NCBI GenBank assembly: GCA_021737405.1
Contig: JAIPEG010000002.1
Location: 62,001-126,000 of the forward strand
From: Bacteriovoracaceae bacterium
GTDB lineage: Bacteria > Bdellovibrionota > Bacteriovoracia > Bacteriovoracales > Bacteriovoracaceae
Length of the DNA stretch: 64,000 nt
Direction: 5' to 3'
Positions 43,152 through 49,335 of the stretch are shown here, one piece after another. The stretch's first letter is position 1. Each line of letters begins with the position of its first letter. The position numbers and the translations under genes were made by a program. Under the pieces are notes generated by a model. That model was not told where the DNA came from. It ran no database searches and worked only from the letters and a program-made list of their open reading frames with translations.

Positions 43152-43487
43152 TTACCTTTTTTCACGCATTTTTGTTGTGCCGTGGAAAATCACTCCTTCC
43201 TCTACAATTAGACTCGGTGTGGTAATTGTCCCCTCAAATCTTGCGGGCTTGATTATCTCTACTCGACTGCTGGCCTTTATATTACCTTTCACAGTACCTG
43301 AGATCAGTATGACGTTTGCATTTATGTCAGCATTCACGACAGCACCCTCAGAGACAATGACTGTGTCATTTGAAAATACTGAACCGTTCACTATTCCTGC
43401 AATTCTAGCAACCCCGTTAAAACTTAGGTTGCCCTCAAATTTACAGCCCTCTTCAATAATGGCTGAAATTTCACCCTTATGCCTCAC
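43152..43487 (-). CDS. Bactofilin (polymer-forming cytoskeletal protein)
   Basis: 111 aa from GTG at 43487, chosen because AAGGGA lies 7 bp upstream; the TTG at 43508 would add seven residues and precede that site. The protein is one right-handed beta-helix core with the bactofilin repeat pattern: GCKFEGNLSFNGVARIAGIVNGSVFSN, ...EGAVVNADINANVILISGTVKGNIKASSRVEI, ...ARFEGTITTPSLIVEEGVIFHG (positions roughly 13-105). Bactofilins form filaments without nucleotide; in Myxococcus they scaffold the ParABS system. Here the gene follows parB by 38 bp, in line with that role. A six-member palindrome copy lies in the gap. Confidence 0.93.
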   Translation of the reverse strand: MRHKGEISAIIEEGCKFEGNLSFNGVARIAGIVNGSVFSNDTVIVSEGAVVNADINANVILISGTVKGNIKASSRVEIIKPARFEGTITTPSLIVEEGVIFHGTTKMREKR

Positions 43488-43509
43488 TGCACAATCCCTT
43501 GTTAGCAAT

Positions 43510-43525
43510 TGGTCCTATGGGACCA
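43510..43525. repeat. parS-like 16-bp palindrome between parB and bactofilin
   Basis: TGGTCCTATGGGACCA, one base from a perfect palindrome, lies directly after the parB stop (43526-43528) and 22 bp before the bactofilin GTG. It is the only copy in the window outside mnmE and is in a non-coding spot, so the sequence is not there for its coding value. As RNA it could form a short hairpin ahead of the bactofilin ribosome site. Confidence 0.75.
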
Positions 43526-44434
43526 CTAGCGCTTTAGCAGATATTCGTAAATATCGTTAAATTCTGCTTCATTTGAGAATTTTATCACAAACTCCCCTTT
43601 TCCTGCTTTTTTTGATTTTAGATCAAAATGGTAACCAGTCTTCTGCTCAAGAGTTTGCCTGAATTGATCCAACTTACCATCAAAGCTTTTTTCTTGAGGT
43701 CTTTTTGCTATTGGATCTTTCTTTTTTAATAGTTTTTCTAGCTCTCTTACAGACATATTTTCTGTGACTGCTAAGTTTGCAAACCTTATGCTTCTTTCAC
43801 GTTCTTTTTCAGCTGCTAAAACCTTAGCGTGGCCAAAACTTAAAAACTCTTTTTGAAGGAGTTCAATCACATCTCTTGGTAGTTTTAATATTCTTATATA
43901 GTTTGCGATTGTAGATCTTTCTTTTCCAAGTCTTTTGGCAACTTCCTCTTGGGTAAGATCAAATTCGTTCATTAATTGATAATAGGCCAAAGCTTCTTCA
44001 ACACAATTGAGATCACTTCTTTGAACGTTCTCTATGATAGAGATAACCATTCGTTCTCTATCAGTAACCTTCTTTATAACAACGGGAACCTTATCAATTC
44101 CTGCCATTTTTGCGGCCCTTAGTCTTCTCTCACCCGCAATAAGCTCAAAGCCTTTCTCTGCTTTTAAAACAACTAGTGGCTGAATTATTCCGTTCTCTTT
44201 AATCGAGTCCGATAATTCTTTTAGTTCTTTCTCTTTAAATATTTTTCTTGGCTGATTAGGATTTGCCTTTATTTCACTAATACTTATTAATGCAGGATTT
44301 TCCCCAAAGCTTTCTTCTCTTTTGGCTTGTGAATTATCTGCAGCAAGATCCTTTAGAGATGCTTTTAAAATCTCATTCGGTGTATCTTGAATTAATGAAG
44401 CTATTCCTTTTCCGAGTGCTACTTTTTTCGCCAT
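43526..44434 (-). CDS. parB: Chromosome-partitioning protein ParB (Spo0J)
   Basis: 302 aa. N-terminal CTPase/clamp domain with ISEIKANPNQPRKIF, IIQPLVVLKAEKGFELIAGERRLRAAKMAGI (GERRxRA CTP-binding box) and ENVQRSDLNCVEEA. Central HTH (LTQEEVAKRLGKERSTIANYIRIL) reads parS; C-terminal dimer domain follows. ParB loads at parS, spreads as a sliding clamp and is moved by ParA. The parA-parB pair with parS nearby makes a complete chromosomal Par locus. Confidence 0.97.
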   Translation of the reverse strand: MAKKVALGKGIASLIQDTPNEILKASLKDLAADNSQAKREESFGENPALISISEIKANPNQPRKIFKEKELKELSDSIKENGIIQPLVVLKAEKGFELIAGERRLRAAKMAGIDKVPVVIKKVTDRERMVISIIENVQRSDLNCVEEALAYYQLMNEFDLTQEEVAKRLGKERSTIANYIRILKLPRDVIELLQKEFLSFGHAKVLAAEKERERSIRFANLAVTENMSVRELEKLLKKKDPIAKRPQEKSFDGKLDQFRQTLEQKTGYHFDLKSKKAGKGEFVIKFSNEAEFNDIYEYLLKR

Positions 44435-44447
44435 TTCTAATCCCTAA

Positions 44448-45293
44448 TTACTGTAATTGATCTCTATGCTCTGAAGGTATCTCTGGTATCGTGAAATTTA
44501 ATTCAGGCTGATTTTCAGGAGCTTTCATTCGTTCTTTTAAAATCATCTCTTTTGCTAGAGATAAATATGCCTGACTTCCCTTTGATTCAATATCGTAGAG
44601 AATTATTGGTTTCCCAAAGGAAGGGCATTCTGAAATTTTCACATTTCTTGGAATAATCGTTTCAAATACCTTATCGCCAAAGTGAGTTTTCACTTCCGCA
44701 GAAACCTGCTTATGAAGAGAAGTTCTCGCATCAAACATCGTTAACAAAATTCCCTCTAAATTTAGCGTGGGATTAAGAGATGATCTAACAAGTCTAATAG
44801 TATTAAGTAACTGTGCTAGGCCCTCCATTGCATAATACTCAGTTTGTAAAGGTACTATCACCCCAGTACAAGCCGTTAAGGCATTCACTGCAAGTACATT
44901 CAAGCTGGGTAAACAATCAACTAAGATGTAATCGTAGTCTTTTACAATTGGCTCTAGAGCGGCTTTAAGCTTGTGTTCCCTAGCAAACTCACTAACTAAC
45001 TCTATTTCTGCACCAATTAGATTTTGGTCAGCAGGACAAACGTCAAAATGAGGTAATTCTGTGGGGTAGATACAGTCCTTAATAGACTTTTTCCCAATTA
45101 TTGCGTGATAAATATTACTTTCAGCAAAGTCCTCTTTATTTAAACCAGCTCCAACACTGGCATTTCCTTGAGGGTCTAGATCAATTAGTAGAGTTTTTTT
45201 CTCAGCTACTGCTAGACACGCCGCAAGATTTATGGCCGTAGTTGTTTTACCAACTCCGCCTTTCTGATTGGCTATAGCAATGATTTTAGTCAT
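44448..45293 (-). CDS. parA: Chromosome-partitioning ATPase ParA (Soj)
   Basis: 281 aa, deviant Walker ATPase. [25 protein letters not shown] (signature Lys in KGGVGKT), [30 protein letters not shown] (normally DCPPSL; here Cys-Leu-Pro) and [16 protein letters not shown]. Binds DNA nonspecifically as ATP dimer and drives ParB-parS complexes apart. Starts 37 bp after rsmG and is 13 bp ahead of parB. Confidence 0.97.
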
Positions 45294-45329: not shown

Positions 45330-45956
45330 TTAAATAAGTTGCGATAGTTTGACAAGCGCTTTCTTTGTTCCACGTGGAACATTTGCGCTTTGGTAAGCTA
45401 TAAAGCTTCTCCCATTGGTGCCTGGGAGGTCGTACTCTTCATCTAGCACCTTTCTAAAACTTTCTATCTTTTCTGGGACAGACTCAAGCTCCTTAACATT
45501 AGGACCTTTATAAAAATAAACCGTGATCGGCTTATTTGAATTTATTTTTTTAATATAATCAGAAATCTTGCCTACGGCCTTAAAAGAGAGTGAGCAAGGC
45601 ACATCTATCAAGATGTCCTCTATTCTATAGTGGTAAGTCTTAATATTTTTAAGTTTTAGATCTAGTGCTATATCTCTGACAGCGTCTGCTTTTTTTCGCC
45701 TCGCTTCAAACCCTATAAACTTCGTTCCAGGATACTTGTGCCCAAGTGGCAACAAAGGAAAGCCACCACCAAAGCCTATATCCAAGTGAAGACCCTTTTC
45801 TATGCTTTTTGAGAATGAATTAAATAAATCACAAGGAAGAATCGAGTCAAGAACTTGCTTCTGAAAAAACTCCTCTGGTTCATTGATTCGTGTCAAATTT
45901 AGTGAACCATATTTATCGTTAAGTAAATCGAGAAGATTATCAGAGAAGTCTCTCAC
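45330..45956 (-). CDS. rsmG: 16S rRNA (guanine527-N7)-methyltransferase RsmG
   Basis: Methylates G527 of 16S rRNA. 208 aa, SAM-dependent Rossmann fold: GLHLDIGFGGGFPLLPLG (usually DxGSGAGFPG), then KFIGFEARRKKADAV. GTG start at 45956 overlaps the mnmG stop by 1 bp. The C-terminal NVPRGTK is written by a perfect parS site (45366-45381), so this stretch of protein is constrained by segregation. mnmG-rsmG-parA-parB is the standard order near bacterial origins. Confidence 0.92.
   Translation of the reverse strand: MRDFSDNLLDLLNDKYGSLNLTRINEPEEFFQKQVLDSILPCDLFNSFSKSIEKGLHLDIGFGGGFPLLPLGHKYPGTKFIGFEARRKKADAVRDIALDLKLKNIKTYHYRIEDILIDVPCSLSFKAVGKISDYIKKINSNKPITVYFYKGPNVKELESVPEKIESFRKVLDEEYDLPGTNGRSFIAYQSANVPRGTKKALVKLSQLI
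45366..45381. promoter_or_regulatory. parS: parS centromere site (perfect 16-bp match)
   Basis: TGTTCCACGTGGAACA, a perfect palindrome and the canonical bacterial parS, lies inside the 3' end of rsmG, about 70 bp upstream of parA and ~8 kb from oriC. ParB nucleates here. Confidence 0.95.
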
Positions 45957-47821
45957 TATAAGGCCGATGCTATAAAGGTCAGAGTTGCGGGCCTTATCCC
46001 CTCTATTCTTTTGAGCTGACCAAATGTTTCTGGCTTAATCTTTTCAATCCGCTGCTTACATTCAAAGCTCACATTTCTATTTTTAAGTAGGTTTTCCCAA
46101 TCAACCCTTTTGTCTTCTAGCTTCCTTTGAATTTTGTTTTCTTGTTCTTCCCGTATAATATATCCGCGATACTTAAGAGAGATGCCTACAGCCCTTATCA
46201 CCCTCACATCAAAATCAACACCAGATCTCTGTAAAATTTTAGAAAGTCCACTAACTGGATCCACATTGCTTCTTTGCAAGACCTCTACGAGGCTAATTTT
46301 TTCTTTTATTCCACCCCAGTTAAATTCATCAAATAGCTGGACGTTCTCTTTATTTGGAAAGAAAAACATTTTTTCGCACATTTTTTCTAATAATTTAAAT
46401 TGAGCAAGGAAATTTTCGTTCGCCCTATCAATTGCCAAATCAAGATCAAGGGACTTTCTATAGCCTGACATCCTTAAAACAGAATTATCTTCTCTAATAA
46501 AAAGCCTATTTTCTGAGCGTGCGGTAAAGAGCCTGTAGGGCTCATCTCGCTCAAAAGTAACCAAATCCTCAATCATGACACCTATGTAGCTTTCATGCCT
46601 ACTGAGGACCAATGGAGCTCTACCCAGCACGGCCAAAGCTGCGTTGAGGCCGGAAATCAAACCTTGTCCGGCAGCTTCTTCATAGCCAGAGGTTCCACAA
46701 ACTTGGCCAGCAAAGTACAGACCCTCAATCCGCTTGTGTTCCATAGATCTGGTTAAATCAAGAGTATCAACAACGTCGTACTCAACAGCATAACCATAAA
46801 CCGCAATTTCTGCCTCTTCTAGCCCGGGAATAAGTCTTAAGAACTCTAATTGAACCTCTTTTGGCAATGAAGTTGATATTCCATTTGGATAAAATGTGTC
46901 TATATCAAGACCTTCGGGCTCCACGAATACATGATGAACATTTCTATCTAAATACCGAAAAGCCTTGTCTTCAATGCTGGGGCAATACCTTGGTCCAACG
47001 CCTTTAATTTGACCATTGAAAATTGGGCTTTTTTCTTTGTTTTCTCGAATGATAGTCAGCGCACTCTCATTAGTTCTCGTTAGAAAACAATCAACCTGAG
47101 ACTGAGCCCTATTGAAACTATCATGGGCCCAATGGAAGTTTAATGCCATTGGATCACTTGGCTGCGCCTCCATTTTAGAGAAATCGATAGAATCCCTTCT
47201 TATTCTTGGTGGTGTACCTGTTTTAAAGCGCTTTTTTAGGGTTTTAACGTTCTCAAAAAGGTCATCTATACTTCTAGATGATTCTTTACCAAATCTGCCG
47301 CCTACCGAAACCTCTGGCCCAGTGTGGAGTTTTCCTCCAAGAAAAGTTCCAGTAGTGACAATAAGTTTTTTACTAAAATATGTTCCAAGATCTCCCGCTA
47401 ATTCAAAATATTCACCAACCTTTGGGGAAACACAATTGATCTTGTCTCTAACAACGGTGATGCTTGACTGAGAAATCACTTCTTCTGCAAATTTACTATA
47501 TTTTGTCTTATCTATTTGAATTCTAGTTGATTGAACGGCGTAGCCCTTGCTCTCATTTAAAACTCGATACTGAATGCCTGATAGGTCAGCCAGCTTGCCC
47601 ATTAAACCACCAAGGGCATCAATCTCTCTAACTACCTGACCCTTTCCAACGCCACCCACTGCGGGATTACATGGTGCAGATCCAAGACCAACACCTGGAA
47701 GAGAAACGATTCCAACTTTGAGACCGAATTGATTTGCAGCCCATGCAGCCTCAAGGCCAGCATGACCGCCACCCATAACTAAAATATCAAATTTTTCTAA
47801 AGATTGTTCCACGTAGAACAT
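45956..47821 (-). CDS. mnmG: tRNA uridine-5-carboxymethylaminomethyl modification enzyme MnmG (GidA)
   Basis: With MnmE installs the cmnm5 group on U34 of tRNAs. 621 aa FAD protein. FAD-binding DILVMGGGHAGLEAAWAANQ near residues 12-31, CNPAVGGVGKGQVVREIDALGG, GTFLGGKLHTG, FKTGTPPRI, and GQVCGTSGYEEAAGQGLISGLNAA. The start codon region MFYVEQ is encoded by a parS-like site. It is 53 bp after mnmE and overlaps rsmG. Confidence 0.97.
   Translation of the reverse strand: MFYVEQSLEKFDILVMGGGHAGLEAAWAANQFGLKVGIVSLPGVGLGSAPCNPAVGGVGKGQVVREIDALGGLMGKLADLSGIQYRVLNESKGYAVQSTRIQIDKTKYSKFAEEVISQSSITVVRDKINCVSPKVGEYFELAGDLGTYFSKKLIVTTGTFLGGKLHTGPEVSVGGRFGKESSRSIDDLFENVKTLKKRFKTGTPPRIRRDSIDFSKMEAQPSDPMALNFHWAHDSFNRAQSQVDCFLTRTNESALTIIRENKEKSPIFNGQIKGVGPRYCPSIEDKAFRYLDRNVHHVFVEPEGLDIDTFYPNGISTSLPKEVQLEFLRLIPGLEEAEIAVYGYAVEYDVVDTLDLTRSMEHKRIEGLYFAGQVCGTSGYEEAAGQGLISGLNAALAVLGRAPLVLSRHESYIGVMIEDLVTFERDEPYRLFTARSENRLFIREDNSVLRMSGYRKSLDLDLAIDRANENFLAQFKLLEKMCEKMFFFPNKENVQLFDEFNWGGIKEKISLVEVLQRSNVDPVSGLSKILQRSGVDFDVRVIRAVGISLKYRGYIIREEQENKIQRKLEDKRVDWENLLKNRNVSFECKQRIEKIKPETFGQLKRIEGIRPATLTFIASAL
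47805..47820. promoter_or_regulatory. parS: Second parS site, one mismatch, at the mnmG start
   Basis: TGTTCCACGTAGAACA differs from the canonical parS by a single base (A for G at position 11). It covers codons 1-6 of mnmG, including most of the ATG, 2.4 kb from the perfect site in rsmG. Confidence 0.85.
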
Positions 47822-47874: not shown

Positions 47875-49335
47875 CTACTTTCCTATGCAGAAATTGCTAA
47901 ATATAGAGTCCAGGACGTCCTGTGGGGATATGACACCGATTAGCTCGTCCAAGGAGGCGCCCAACCTATTAGCAAAGGAGCTCAGAATAGCACAATCCCT
48001 CGTTTCTCCGTAAGTAGCTAAATACTCATTGAAAGCATGGTAAATATCTGAAATTACATCGCGGTGTCTAGAGATAGCTATTGGGTTAGATAACGTAAGT
48101 GATTGATATTTATTGAAAATGAAATATTCCAACGAATTCTCTGGTCCTATAGGACCACCATATTTAAAAGCTGCCCCTATGGGACCACTTAGTAATTGTG
48201 GTTCTATAGGACCACCTAAATTACTTGCCCCTATAGGACCAATACCCTCTGCCCCCATAGGACCACTAGATAGAAAGAAATTGCCATTTATTTTACTAGT
48301 AATGGACTTTAATTTTTTATCTGCTCCGGGAATATCACCATGGGTAAAAACGATAGCATCGAAATTAAAATCTTTATTGATGGTTAAATTATCAAATGGA
48401 TTAATAACAAAAATTTTAAAGAAACTTTCTTCGTTAATTTTCTTTGATCTCTCTATTCCCAAGTTTTCAACTTCTTCAGAAGTATCTCTGAGTCCAGCAG
48501 TATCAATCAATTTGAAGGAAGACCCGAATAGCTGCACATACTCTGAAATTGAATCTCTGGTAGTACCATGAACACTGCTTACAATCGCCCTATCCTCTCC
48601 CAGCAGCTTATTAAAGAAGGTACTCTTGCCAGCATTGGTAGCGCCATACAAAGAGATAACAGGGGAAAGTAGATGATTCAAATTACCCTGAGTTCTTTGA
48701 TATAACTTTGAAATAAGACCATGAAATTTTGTATGAATAAATTCGAGCTTTTGAAAAATTTCATCTTCTCCTACATCATCAGAAAAATCGATGAGAATTT
48801 CGAGATGCATCTTAATTTCCAAAAAAAGACTACGTACTTCATTATAACTTTTAAATAATTTGTTATTAAGTAACTCAGTCCCAGCTTTTAGACCAAAGCC
48901 GGAGTTAGCATTAAGAATTAAATCGAGACCTTCAACCTGAGTAAGGTTTAGTTTATTGTTTTTAAGCGCCCTGTAGGAGAATTCTCCTGGCTGAGCCCGA
49001 CGAAAGCTAAATTTCTCAACCAGATAATCACAGAAGTTGTTTAAAATTAGTGGGTTACCATGAAGATTAAACTCGACAATGTTTTCACCAGTAAAGCTCT
49101 CGGGACCCTTAAAATAAATAAAGATGCCCTCATCTAGAATCTCTCCACTCTCTTTAGAAAATTTCGAAAAATAAGCTTTTCGCGCTTCTGGCAAGAAGCC
49201 ATCACCTTTTTTAGTAATGGCCCTTAAGAAAGAAAGATCCTCTATACCACTGACCCTTACAATTCCCAGGGCACTTTTTTCACCTAAACCAGTACTAACA
49301 GCAACAATAGGGCCTGGTTGGTTTTGCAAAGACAT
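47875..49335 (-). CDS. mnmE: tRNA modification GTPase MnmE (TrmE), with in-frame palindrome array
   Basis: 486 aa (family ~455). N-terminal folate-binding domain (DEGIFIYFKGPESFTGENIVEFNLHGNP at ~67-95, RRAQPGEFSYRALKNNKLNLTQVEGL at ~112-137), central G domain inserted in a helical domain, C-terminal FCIGK with the conserved Cys. G1 is GATNAGKS (231-238), G2 GTTRD, G3 DTAG. G4, normally NKxD, reads THGD (331-334). Right after the G5 region (FLSS) residues 358-399 carry five Gly-Pro-(Ile/Met) repeats written by palindromes. The domain otherwise looks complete, so function is probably kept. Overlaps nothing; yidC ends 3 bp upstream. Confidence 0.93.
   Translation of the reverse strand: MSLQNQPGPIVAVSTGLGEKSALGIVRVSGIEDLSFLRAITKKGDGFLPEARKAYFSKFSKESGEILDEGIFIYFKGPESFTGENIVEFNLHGNPLILNNFCDYLVEKFSFRRAQPGEFSYRALKNNKLNLTQVEGLDLILNANSGFGLKAGTELLNNKLFKSYNEVRSLFLEIKMHLEILIDFSDDVGEDEIFQKLEFIHTKFHGLISKLYQRTQGNLNHLLSPVISLYGATNAGKSTFFNKLLGEDRAIVSSVHGTTRDSISEYVQLFGSSFKLIDTAGLRDTSEEVENLGIERSKKINEESFFKIFVINPFDNLTINKDFNFDAIVFTHGDIPGADKKLKSITSKINGNFFLSSGPMGAEGIGPIGASNLGGPIEPQLLSGPIGAAFKYGGPIGPENSLEYFIFNKYQSLTLSNPIAISRHRDVISDIYHAFNEYLATYGETRDCAILSSFANRLGASLDELIGVISPQDVLDSIFSNFCIGK
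48142..48265. repeat. Array of five 16-bp parS-like palindromes inside mnmE
   Basis: Copies on the plus strand: TGGTCCTATAGGACCA (48142), TGCCCCTATGGGACCA (48172), TGGTTCTATAGGACCA (48199), TGCCCCTATAGGACCA (48226), TGCCCCCATAGGACCA (48250). Starts are 30, 27, 27 and 24 bp apart, all multiples of three, so every copy is read in the same frame as Gly-Pro-Ile/Met-Gly/Glu. All five end in GGACCA; the other half varies. The spacer sequences between copies are not repeated, so the units are the palindromes themselves rather than one long tandem repeat. Confidence 0.92.

Follow-up and report, generated by a model that had tools for sequence, protein, structure and literature searches.

The window, as the whole 64,000-nucleotide stretch of analyzed DNA is called here, belongs to a Bacteriovoracaceae bacterium and contains the parA and parB genes of a resident ParABS system, a bactofilin gene downstream of parB, two parS sequences, and an mnmE gene in which five of six related 16-bp palindromic sites are embedded. 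The features are as follows.

43152–43508, minus strand: bactofilin gene, downstream of parB (PF04519)
43510–43525, no strand: palindromic site 6, TGGTCCTATGGGACCA, in the parB-bactofilin gap; the same gap is occupied in 22 of 52 origin loci
43526–44434, minus strand: parB of the resident ParABS (HTH_ParB, ParB_N)
44448–45293, minus strand: parA of the resident ParABS, assigned from ParA-type ATPase models below curated cut-offs and its place beside parB
45366–45381, no strand: exact copy of canonical parS, close to the rsmG 3′ end
47805–47820, no strand: parS with one mismatch, overlapping the first codons of mnmG
47875–49335, minus strand: mnmE, the array host gene (TrmE_N, MMR_HSR1, MnmE_helical)
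48142–48157, no strand: palindromic site 1, TGGTCCTATAGGACCA, perfect
48172–48187, no strand: site 2, TGCCCCTATGGGACCA
48199–48214, no strand: site 3, TGGTTCTATAGGACCA
48226–48241, no strand: site 4, TGCCCCTATAGGACCA
48250–48265, no strand: site 5, TGCCCCCATAGGACCA
48145–48264, minus strand: array-bearing MnmE loop, residues 358–397, predicted disordered (AlphaFold pLDDT; alignment of 22 MnmE sequences)

The five 16-mers of mnmE begin at 48142, 48172, 48199, 48226 and 48250, with starts 30, 27, 27 and 24 bp apart. They share one frame of the minus-strand gene and encode Gly-Pro-Ile/Met segments at about residues 358–399 of MnmE, exactly as the original prediction had described. Their consensus is a perfect palindrome, as had also been proposed, but among the five mnmE copies only that at 48142 is itself perfect; the remaining four have 1, 2, 3 and 3 mismatches to it, owing in three copies to a TGCCCC half. 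A count by eye reproduces the reported 10 of 16 positions in common with parS (TGTTYCACGTGRAACA). The separation of the array from parS, given earlier as 2.5 kb, needs correction: the exact parS is ~2.8 kb away, and the one-mismatch parS TGTTCCACGTAGAACA at 47805–47820 is only ~0.3 kb from the array. Near the mnmG start, many relatives also carry a parS-like site. The window holds 6 matches within three mismatches of TGGTCCTATAGGACCA, compared with a mean of 0.13 in 100 shuffled sequences, none of which reached 6. The sixth copy is located directly past the parB stop codon and before the bactofilin gene, which indicates that the feature is not limited to mnmE.

In the rest of the 3.36 Mb assembly (84% complete), a search for the perfect palindrome that allowed two mismatches revealed no further copy, and the broader pattern TGSYYCNATNGRRSCA yielded one extra, non-canonical match outside the origin region. 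Across the family the pattern is TGGTYC-TATA-GRACCA, with TGCCCC as an alternative half. The exact pattern TGSYYCYATAGRACCA was found in 95 of the 97 genomes of the window's family, against 4 of 193 genomes from the other families of the phylum; the reversed control pattern matched 6 of all 290 genomes (rows counted by hand). The two family genomes lacking the exact pattern, G010 and G215, belong to the same genus. Degenerate sites are nevertheless retained in mnmE, parA and parB of G010, and a test of coevolution based on site loss in this genus (g5) was discarded on that account. In a set of relatives retrieved through ParB similarity, and thus picked regardless of the motif, all 24 family loci had sites, as opposed to neither of two outgroup loci. 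These relatives are titled Bacteriovoracaceae, Halobacteriovoraceae or Halobacteriovorax, with others under the looser titles Bacteriovoracales, Bacteriovoracia, Bdellovibrionales, Oligoflexia and Deltaproteobacteria. Prevalence is better read from the 95/97 and 24/24 counts than from the 52 origin loci described below, most of which were fetched through motif hits.

Confinement to the origin was assessed with the pattern TGGTYCNATNGRRSCR in eight genomes of 91–100% completeness. All seven matches in G247 (one contig, 4.15 Mb) lie within 6.3 kb, and all 15 in G008 (two contigs) lie within 12.6 kb in the origin region. The other six genomes each have a single cluster of canonical sites, the widest spanning 33 kb (G222), together with zero to two stray matches each, eight in total, none of which passes the stricter site definition used for the origin loci below. 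The control pattern produced one match in this search, in G008. Rather than being scattered evenly over the genome, the motif is origin-confined in the two closed or nearly closed assemblies, and the palindromes share with canonical parS the trait of clustering at the origin. The original prediction had offered as its alternative an element of the Rickettsia type that spreads selfishly through coding sequence. In-frame copies within one gene and a variable copy number would suit such an element. However, Rickettsia palindromic elements are dispersed across many genes of a genome, whereas the canonical copies here all cluster at the origin, no more than ~35 kb apart, and little is conserved past the 16-bp core; this alternative is now hardly credible. 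The idea that the sites stem from phages or plasmids was likewise rejected: of the 60 stretches found in a scan of a viral collection, 59 have one site each and one has two. The two sites of the latter (L157, 1961–2012), which was the stretch inspected, are perfect palindromes 36 bp apart within a collagen-like Gly-Pro-Ile-Gly-Pro coding repeat, and are a codon coincidence rather than part of the same system.

Across the 52 non-redundant origin loci, 321 sites were identified, with none in the backwards-read control. Copy number ranges from 1 to 11 per locus, within the dnaA-mnmE-parAB-atp region and in both coding and non-coding DNA. The mnmE gene contains 219 of the sites, spread over 48 loci, and the parB-bactofilin gap contains 34, in 22 loci; a further 20 lie past the atp genes, and the remaining sites occupy other gaps and the interiors of yidC, parB, mnmG and dnaA. 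Of the 47 loci that span mnmE as well as the parB-bactofilin gap, 21 carry sites in both, 24 have them in mnmE alone and 2 have them in neither. A minor second cluster is seen past the atp genes, 5–8 kb beyond parB, in 12 of the 52 loci (20 sites; for example L039 776–3044 and L041 9943–10006), and is absent there in the window.

The half-sites are TGGTCC, TGGTTC and TGCCCC, and the center is TATA in 211 of the 321 sites. Adjacent sites are at least 22 bp apart, with 27 or 24 bp the commonest spacing, and the flanks of the 16-bp core are little conserved, except that A is uncommon at the position preceding the core and T at the one following it. One TGCCCC half is present in 102 of the 321 sites. 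Its orientation is unbiased outside mnmE (21 versus 18) and mostly one way inside mnmE (54 versus 9), which suits a symmetric DNA site on which a protein-level preference is superimposed in the MnmE loop.

Codon usage in 50 mnmE genes indicates what is being conserved. The Ile codons within sites comprise 157 ATA, 5 ATC and no ATT, compared with 445 ATA, 378 ATC and 1208 ATT elsewhere in the same genes (Fisher p ~1e-87, with repeats within one array not being independent). The first Pro of the repeat is encoded by CCT 150 times, CCC 13, CCG once and CCA never, and the second by CCA 151 times, CCG 12 and CCT never. The Ile and Pro codon choice follows the palindrome, and hence the DNA rather than the protein is conserved; the outcome named beforehand as fatal to the proposal, relatives that keep Gly-Pro-Ile in codons that destroy the palindrome, is the reverse of what the codons do. 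Selection on RNA hairpins, or on the Gly-Pro-Ile repeat at the protein level, could account for the 6-bp RNA stems that perfect copies might form and for the 214 of 219 mnmE sites read in the Gly-Pro-Ile frame (5 of 219 are in other frames). Against it stand the three codon choices that track the palindrome, the mismatched stems that the sites with one TGCCCC half would form, the non-coding copies, and the unbiased orientation of the TGCCCC half outside mnmE, and we regard such selection as very improbable. In addition, all six mnmG sites are in frames other than Gly-Pro-Ile. Of the alternative frames, one places a TAG stop at the center of TATAG sites and one reads Trp-Ser-Tyr-Arg, which may be the reason why Gly-Pro-Ile is the reading used in the loop.

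The suggestion that the array occupies an extra, tolerated surface loop of MnmE fits the structure prediction and the protein lengths. The AlphaFold model of the window's MnmE has pLDDT below 50 at residues 358–397, as well as at 250–259 and 481–486. MnmE can be 451–457 residues long where there are 0–2 sites and reaches 595 residues with eleven sites.

The parS sequence of chromosomal ParABS systems resembles the palindromes in being a 16-bp palindrome with TG...CA ends, located near oriC and partly within genes. The palindromes differ from it in having a TATA rather than an ACGT center, another third half-site base and denser arrays. Within the window, the only sequences at three or fewer mismatches from exact parS are those at 45366 and 47805, and all six palindromes fall outside this limit. 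parS coexists with the palindromes at the same origin loci: among 30 loci it is exact in 15 and within two mismatches in 27, and on the contigs of the three loci without it a search located no parAB region.

The original prediction named ParB or a ParB-like protein as the binder. Resident ParB could use the palindromes as secondary or weaker sites beside parS, giving a larger partition complex. The palindromes lie a few kb from parS and beside parB, share 10 of 16 positions with parS, and are accompanied by resident ParB in G000 and G032, two of five genomes in which the second ParB described below was not matched; the ParB of Pseudomonas aeruginosa is described as binding half-parS sites in the available text of PMC10419367. 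The residues at DNA-contact positions (Caulobacter numbering, with contact roles as given in the available part of PMC7383237) point the other way. Q162, G170, K171, R173, N178 and G201 are present in 53 of 53 resident ParB sequences, as would be expected of a parS binder. Resident ParB departs from this pattern at position 204, which is K in 53 of 53, and at position 172, which is E or D in 52 of 53 and counts in favor of palindrome binding by resident ParB. The fixed differences between the palindromes and parS, in the third half-site base and the center, argue for separate selection. Because most parS-contact residues are kept and parS sites are present, resident ParB is probably not the palindrome binder, and its use of these sites is judged unlikely. 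The ParB-like half of the prediction fares better, through the ParB of a second ParA/ParB pair located elsewhere in the genome, here termed ParB-B and ParA-B, to which the sequence comparisons point.

A ParB_N search of 16 family genomes returned a second ParB (~54–64 bits) in 15, the exception being G032. A search with a ParB-B alignment (E ≤ 1e-25) matched 92 of 97 family genomes and none of 193 genomes of other families; the match in G287 is a fragment only and G249 has two copies. The five family genomes without a match, G000, G032, G238, G254 and G259, all carry sites. Four of them are 81–85% complete; G032 reaches 99% completeness, although its assembly is split into 240 contigs. In all 44 loci examined, which represent 37 distinct ParB-B sequences, parB-B adjoins a ParA gene, so that a ParA-type ATPase stands beside a ParB with a ParB_N domain as in ParABS systems. 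The window's genome also has a further ParA/ParB-like pair at G000:C16 (L035 922–2870).

ParB-B has the character of a ParB/Noc-type protein. Nucleotide-binding boxes I–III are intact in 37 of 37 sequences. The Pfam HTH_ParB model scores below its cut-off (16–20 bits in three proteins), yet ParB-B aligns with Noc through the HTH_ParB region, which is predicted at pLDDT ~84–95. Its closest sequence relatives in the PDB are Noc, then Spo0J/ParB, and a Foldseek search with the ParB-B model (mean pLDDT 75, pTM 0.48) places ParB, Noc and KorB structures at the top. Relatives of ParB-B on plasmids and phages show ~26–34% identity among the matches listed, which comprise 25 out of 309 plasmid records and 15 out of 45 from phages. 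At the parS-contact positions, ParB-B has E162, K173 and R178 in 37 of 37 sequences and I171 in 35 of 37, whereas Q162, R173, N178 and K171 are found in all 53 resident ParB sequences. Of these residues, Q162, K171 and N178 are common even to ParB and Noc, according to the same portion of PMC7383237. ParB-B keeps the contact residues G170 (36 of 37) and S172 (37 of 37). The alignment is unsure near 201–204, and the comparison accordingly covers 162, 170–173 and 178. The recognition surface of ParB-B appears to be different and nearly invariant, as expected for a protein that recognizes a different, conserved site. The published ParA-binding motif [LFI]G[KR]G[LFI], as given for ParB in the available text of PMC12704722, occurs within the first 60 residues of at least 34 of 53 resident ParB sequences (aligned pieces rather than whole genes) and in none of 37 ParB-B sequences.

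The canonical palindrome was found at the ParB-B operon in 0 of 44 loci. Poor matches with 2–3 mismatches lie inside parB-B, at approximately the same codons, in 11 of the 44 loci (for example L200 1654–1669); they are taken for chance matches in coding sequence that is itself conserved, though a local regulatory site is conceivable. As for another local site, no palindrome of 12 bp or more common to the 44 loci was seen by eye. Three genomes, G008, G022 and G195, have AACCCATGGGTT downstream of parB-B, and G094 has a variant of it, but this sequence is not family-wide. If both chromosomes are taken as circular, the distance of the ParB-B operon is ~376 kb from dnaA in G247, and in G008 it is ~381 kb when counted from the contig end that bears rnpA.

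ParB-B is proposed as the palindrome binder because of how the sites are built and distributed, and because its own operon lacks a good site nearby. Several observations count against this assignment: the five genomes with sites and no ParB-B match, the two contact residues that are kept, the absence of the ParA-binding motif, the distance of ~375–382 kb between operon and origin in two genomes (chromosomal parS usually lies close to its own parAB), and the joint occurrence of mnmE and gap sites in only 21 of 47 loci. Furthermore, the family-wide co-occurrence of sites and ParB-B represents one phylogenetic event, and any family-specific DNA-binding protein would correlate equally well. The sites could therefore be occupied by an unrelated protein of this kind, such as an origin-domain organizer, a replication regulator or a condensin loader. 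Origin confinement and symmetry suit any dimeric factor, co-occurrence at the family level cannot separate the candidates, and the five site-bearing genomes without a ParB-B match would be explained. On the other hand, the palindrome has parS architecture, and a ParB paralog does exist whose specificity residues are changed and whose own operon lacks a canonical site; an unrelated binder consequently seems rather unlikely. A third ParB-like protein, G000:C9 (~326 aa), also has a ParB_N domain. Clear orthologs are present in only 21 of 37 family genomes and were not found in the array-bearing G012, G021 and G029, a patchy distribution that makes it a most improbable binder. Its gene (G000:C9:16120–17097; L036 1435–2415) is beside ORFs that by eye resemble an asparaginyl-tRNA synthetase and an SbcC-type ATPase.

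The reading preferred here is that the palindromes are loading sites of ParB-B at oriC and form a second, centromere-like class distinct from parS, to which a probability of about 0.57 is assigned. The dense array near the origin envisaged in the original prediction gains from the DNA-level constraint, the origin confinement and the tolerated loop, and its putative ParB-like binder is named on comparative grounds. In the proposed mechanism, these sites would serve as origin markers on Bacteriovoracaceae-type chromosomes. The unlinked ParB-B, a ParB/Noc-type protein with a re-specified recognition helix, would bind the palindromes through its DNA-binding domain. Once loaded at the array, it would form a closed clamp and spread outward, while ParA-B or some other partner would move, anchor or organize the origin in parallel with the resident ParABS; the cellular role could lie in segregation, anchoring, folding or a Noc-like function. 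The MnmE loop may host the array because the palindrome, read as Gly-Pro-Ile-Gly-Pro, does no harm in a disordered segment.

Descriptions of bacterial chromosomes usually feature a single ParABS system. The broader proposal that two ParABS-type systems operate on one chromosome throughout the family, with their two centromere classes interleaved at one origin, the second largely within mnmE coding sequence and its operon hundreds of kb away, is put forward tentatively, at close to even odds. The nearest parallel is Noc and its NBS sites in Bacillus, likewise a ParB paralog whose recognition residues are altered and whose palindromic site has changed; in ParB-B the changed DNA-contact residues are 162, 171, 173 and 178. 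As presented in the available part of PMC7383237, parS and NBS differ at bases 1 and 6. The palindromes retain G at base 1 and depart from parS at bases 2, 6 and 7. ParB-B further differs from Noc in having a ParA gene alongside in 44 of 44 loci. NBS are scattered over the chromosome (PMC4331003, available text), whereas the presumed ParB-B sites are clustered at the origin, with all matches in the origin region in G008 and G247. The Streptomyces plasmid SCP1 provides a case of dual ParABS, with two CTP-dependent ParB proteins and distinct sites on one replicon, as described in the accessible portion of PMC13245405. The present arrangement would resemble SCP1 in its two ParB proteins with distinct sites. 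In contrast to the plasmid, it concerns a chromosome, is family-wide and has its second operon far from the presumed sites. Among the open-access literature matches listed, neither these sites nor a second ParAB is described for the Bacteriovoracaceae-type family.

Bdellovibrio is a predator with non-binary division (PMC6985089, in the text available). If the proposed assignment is true, the ParB-B system would constitute an independent natural case, besides Noc, of a change in ParB specificity, in a family related to predators, and mnmE would be a coding gene that serves as a landing array, its codon choice dictated by the DNA site.
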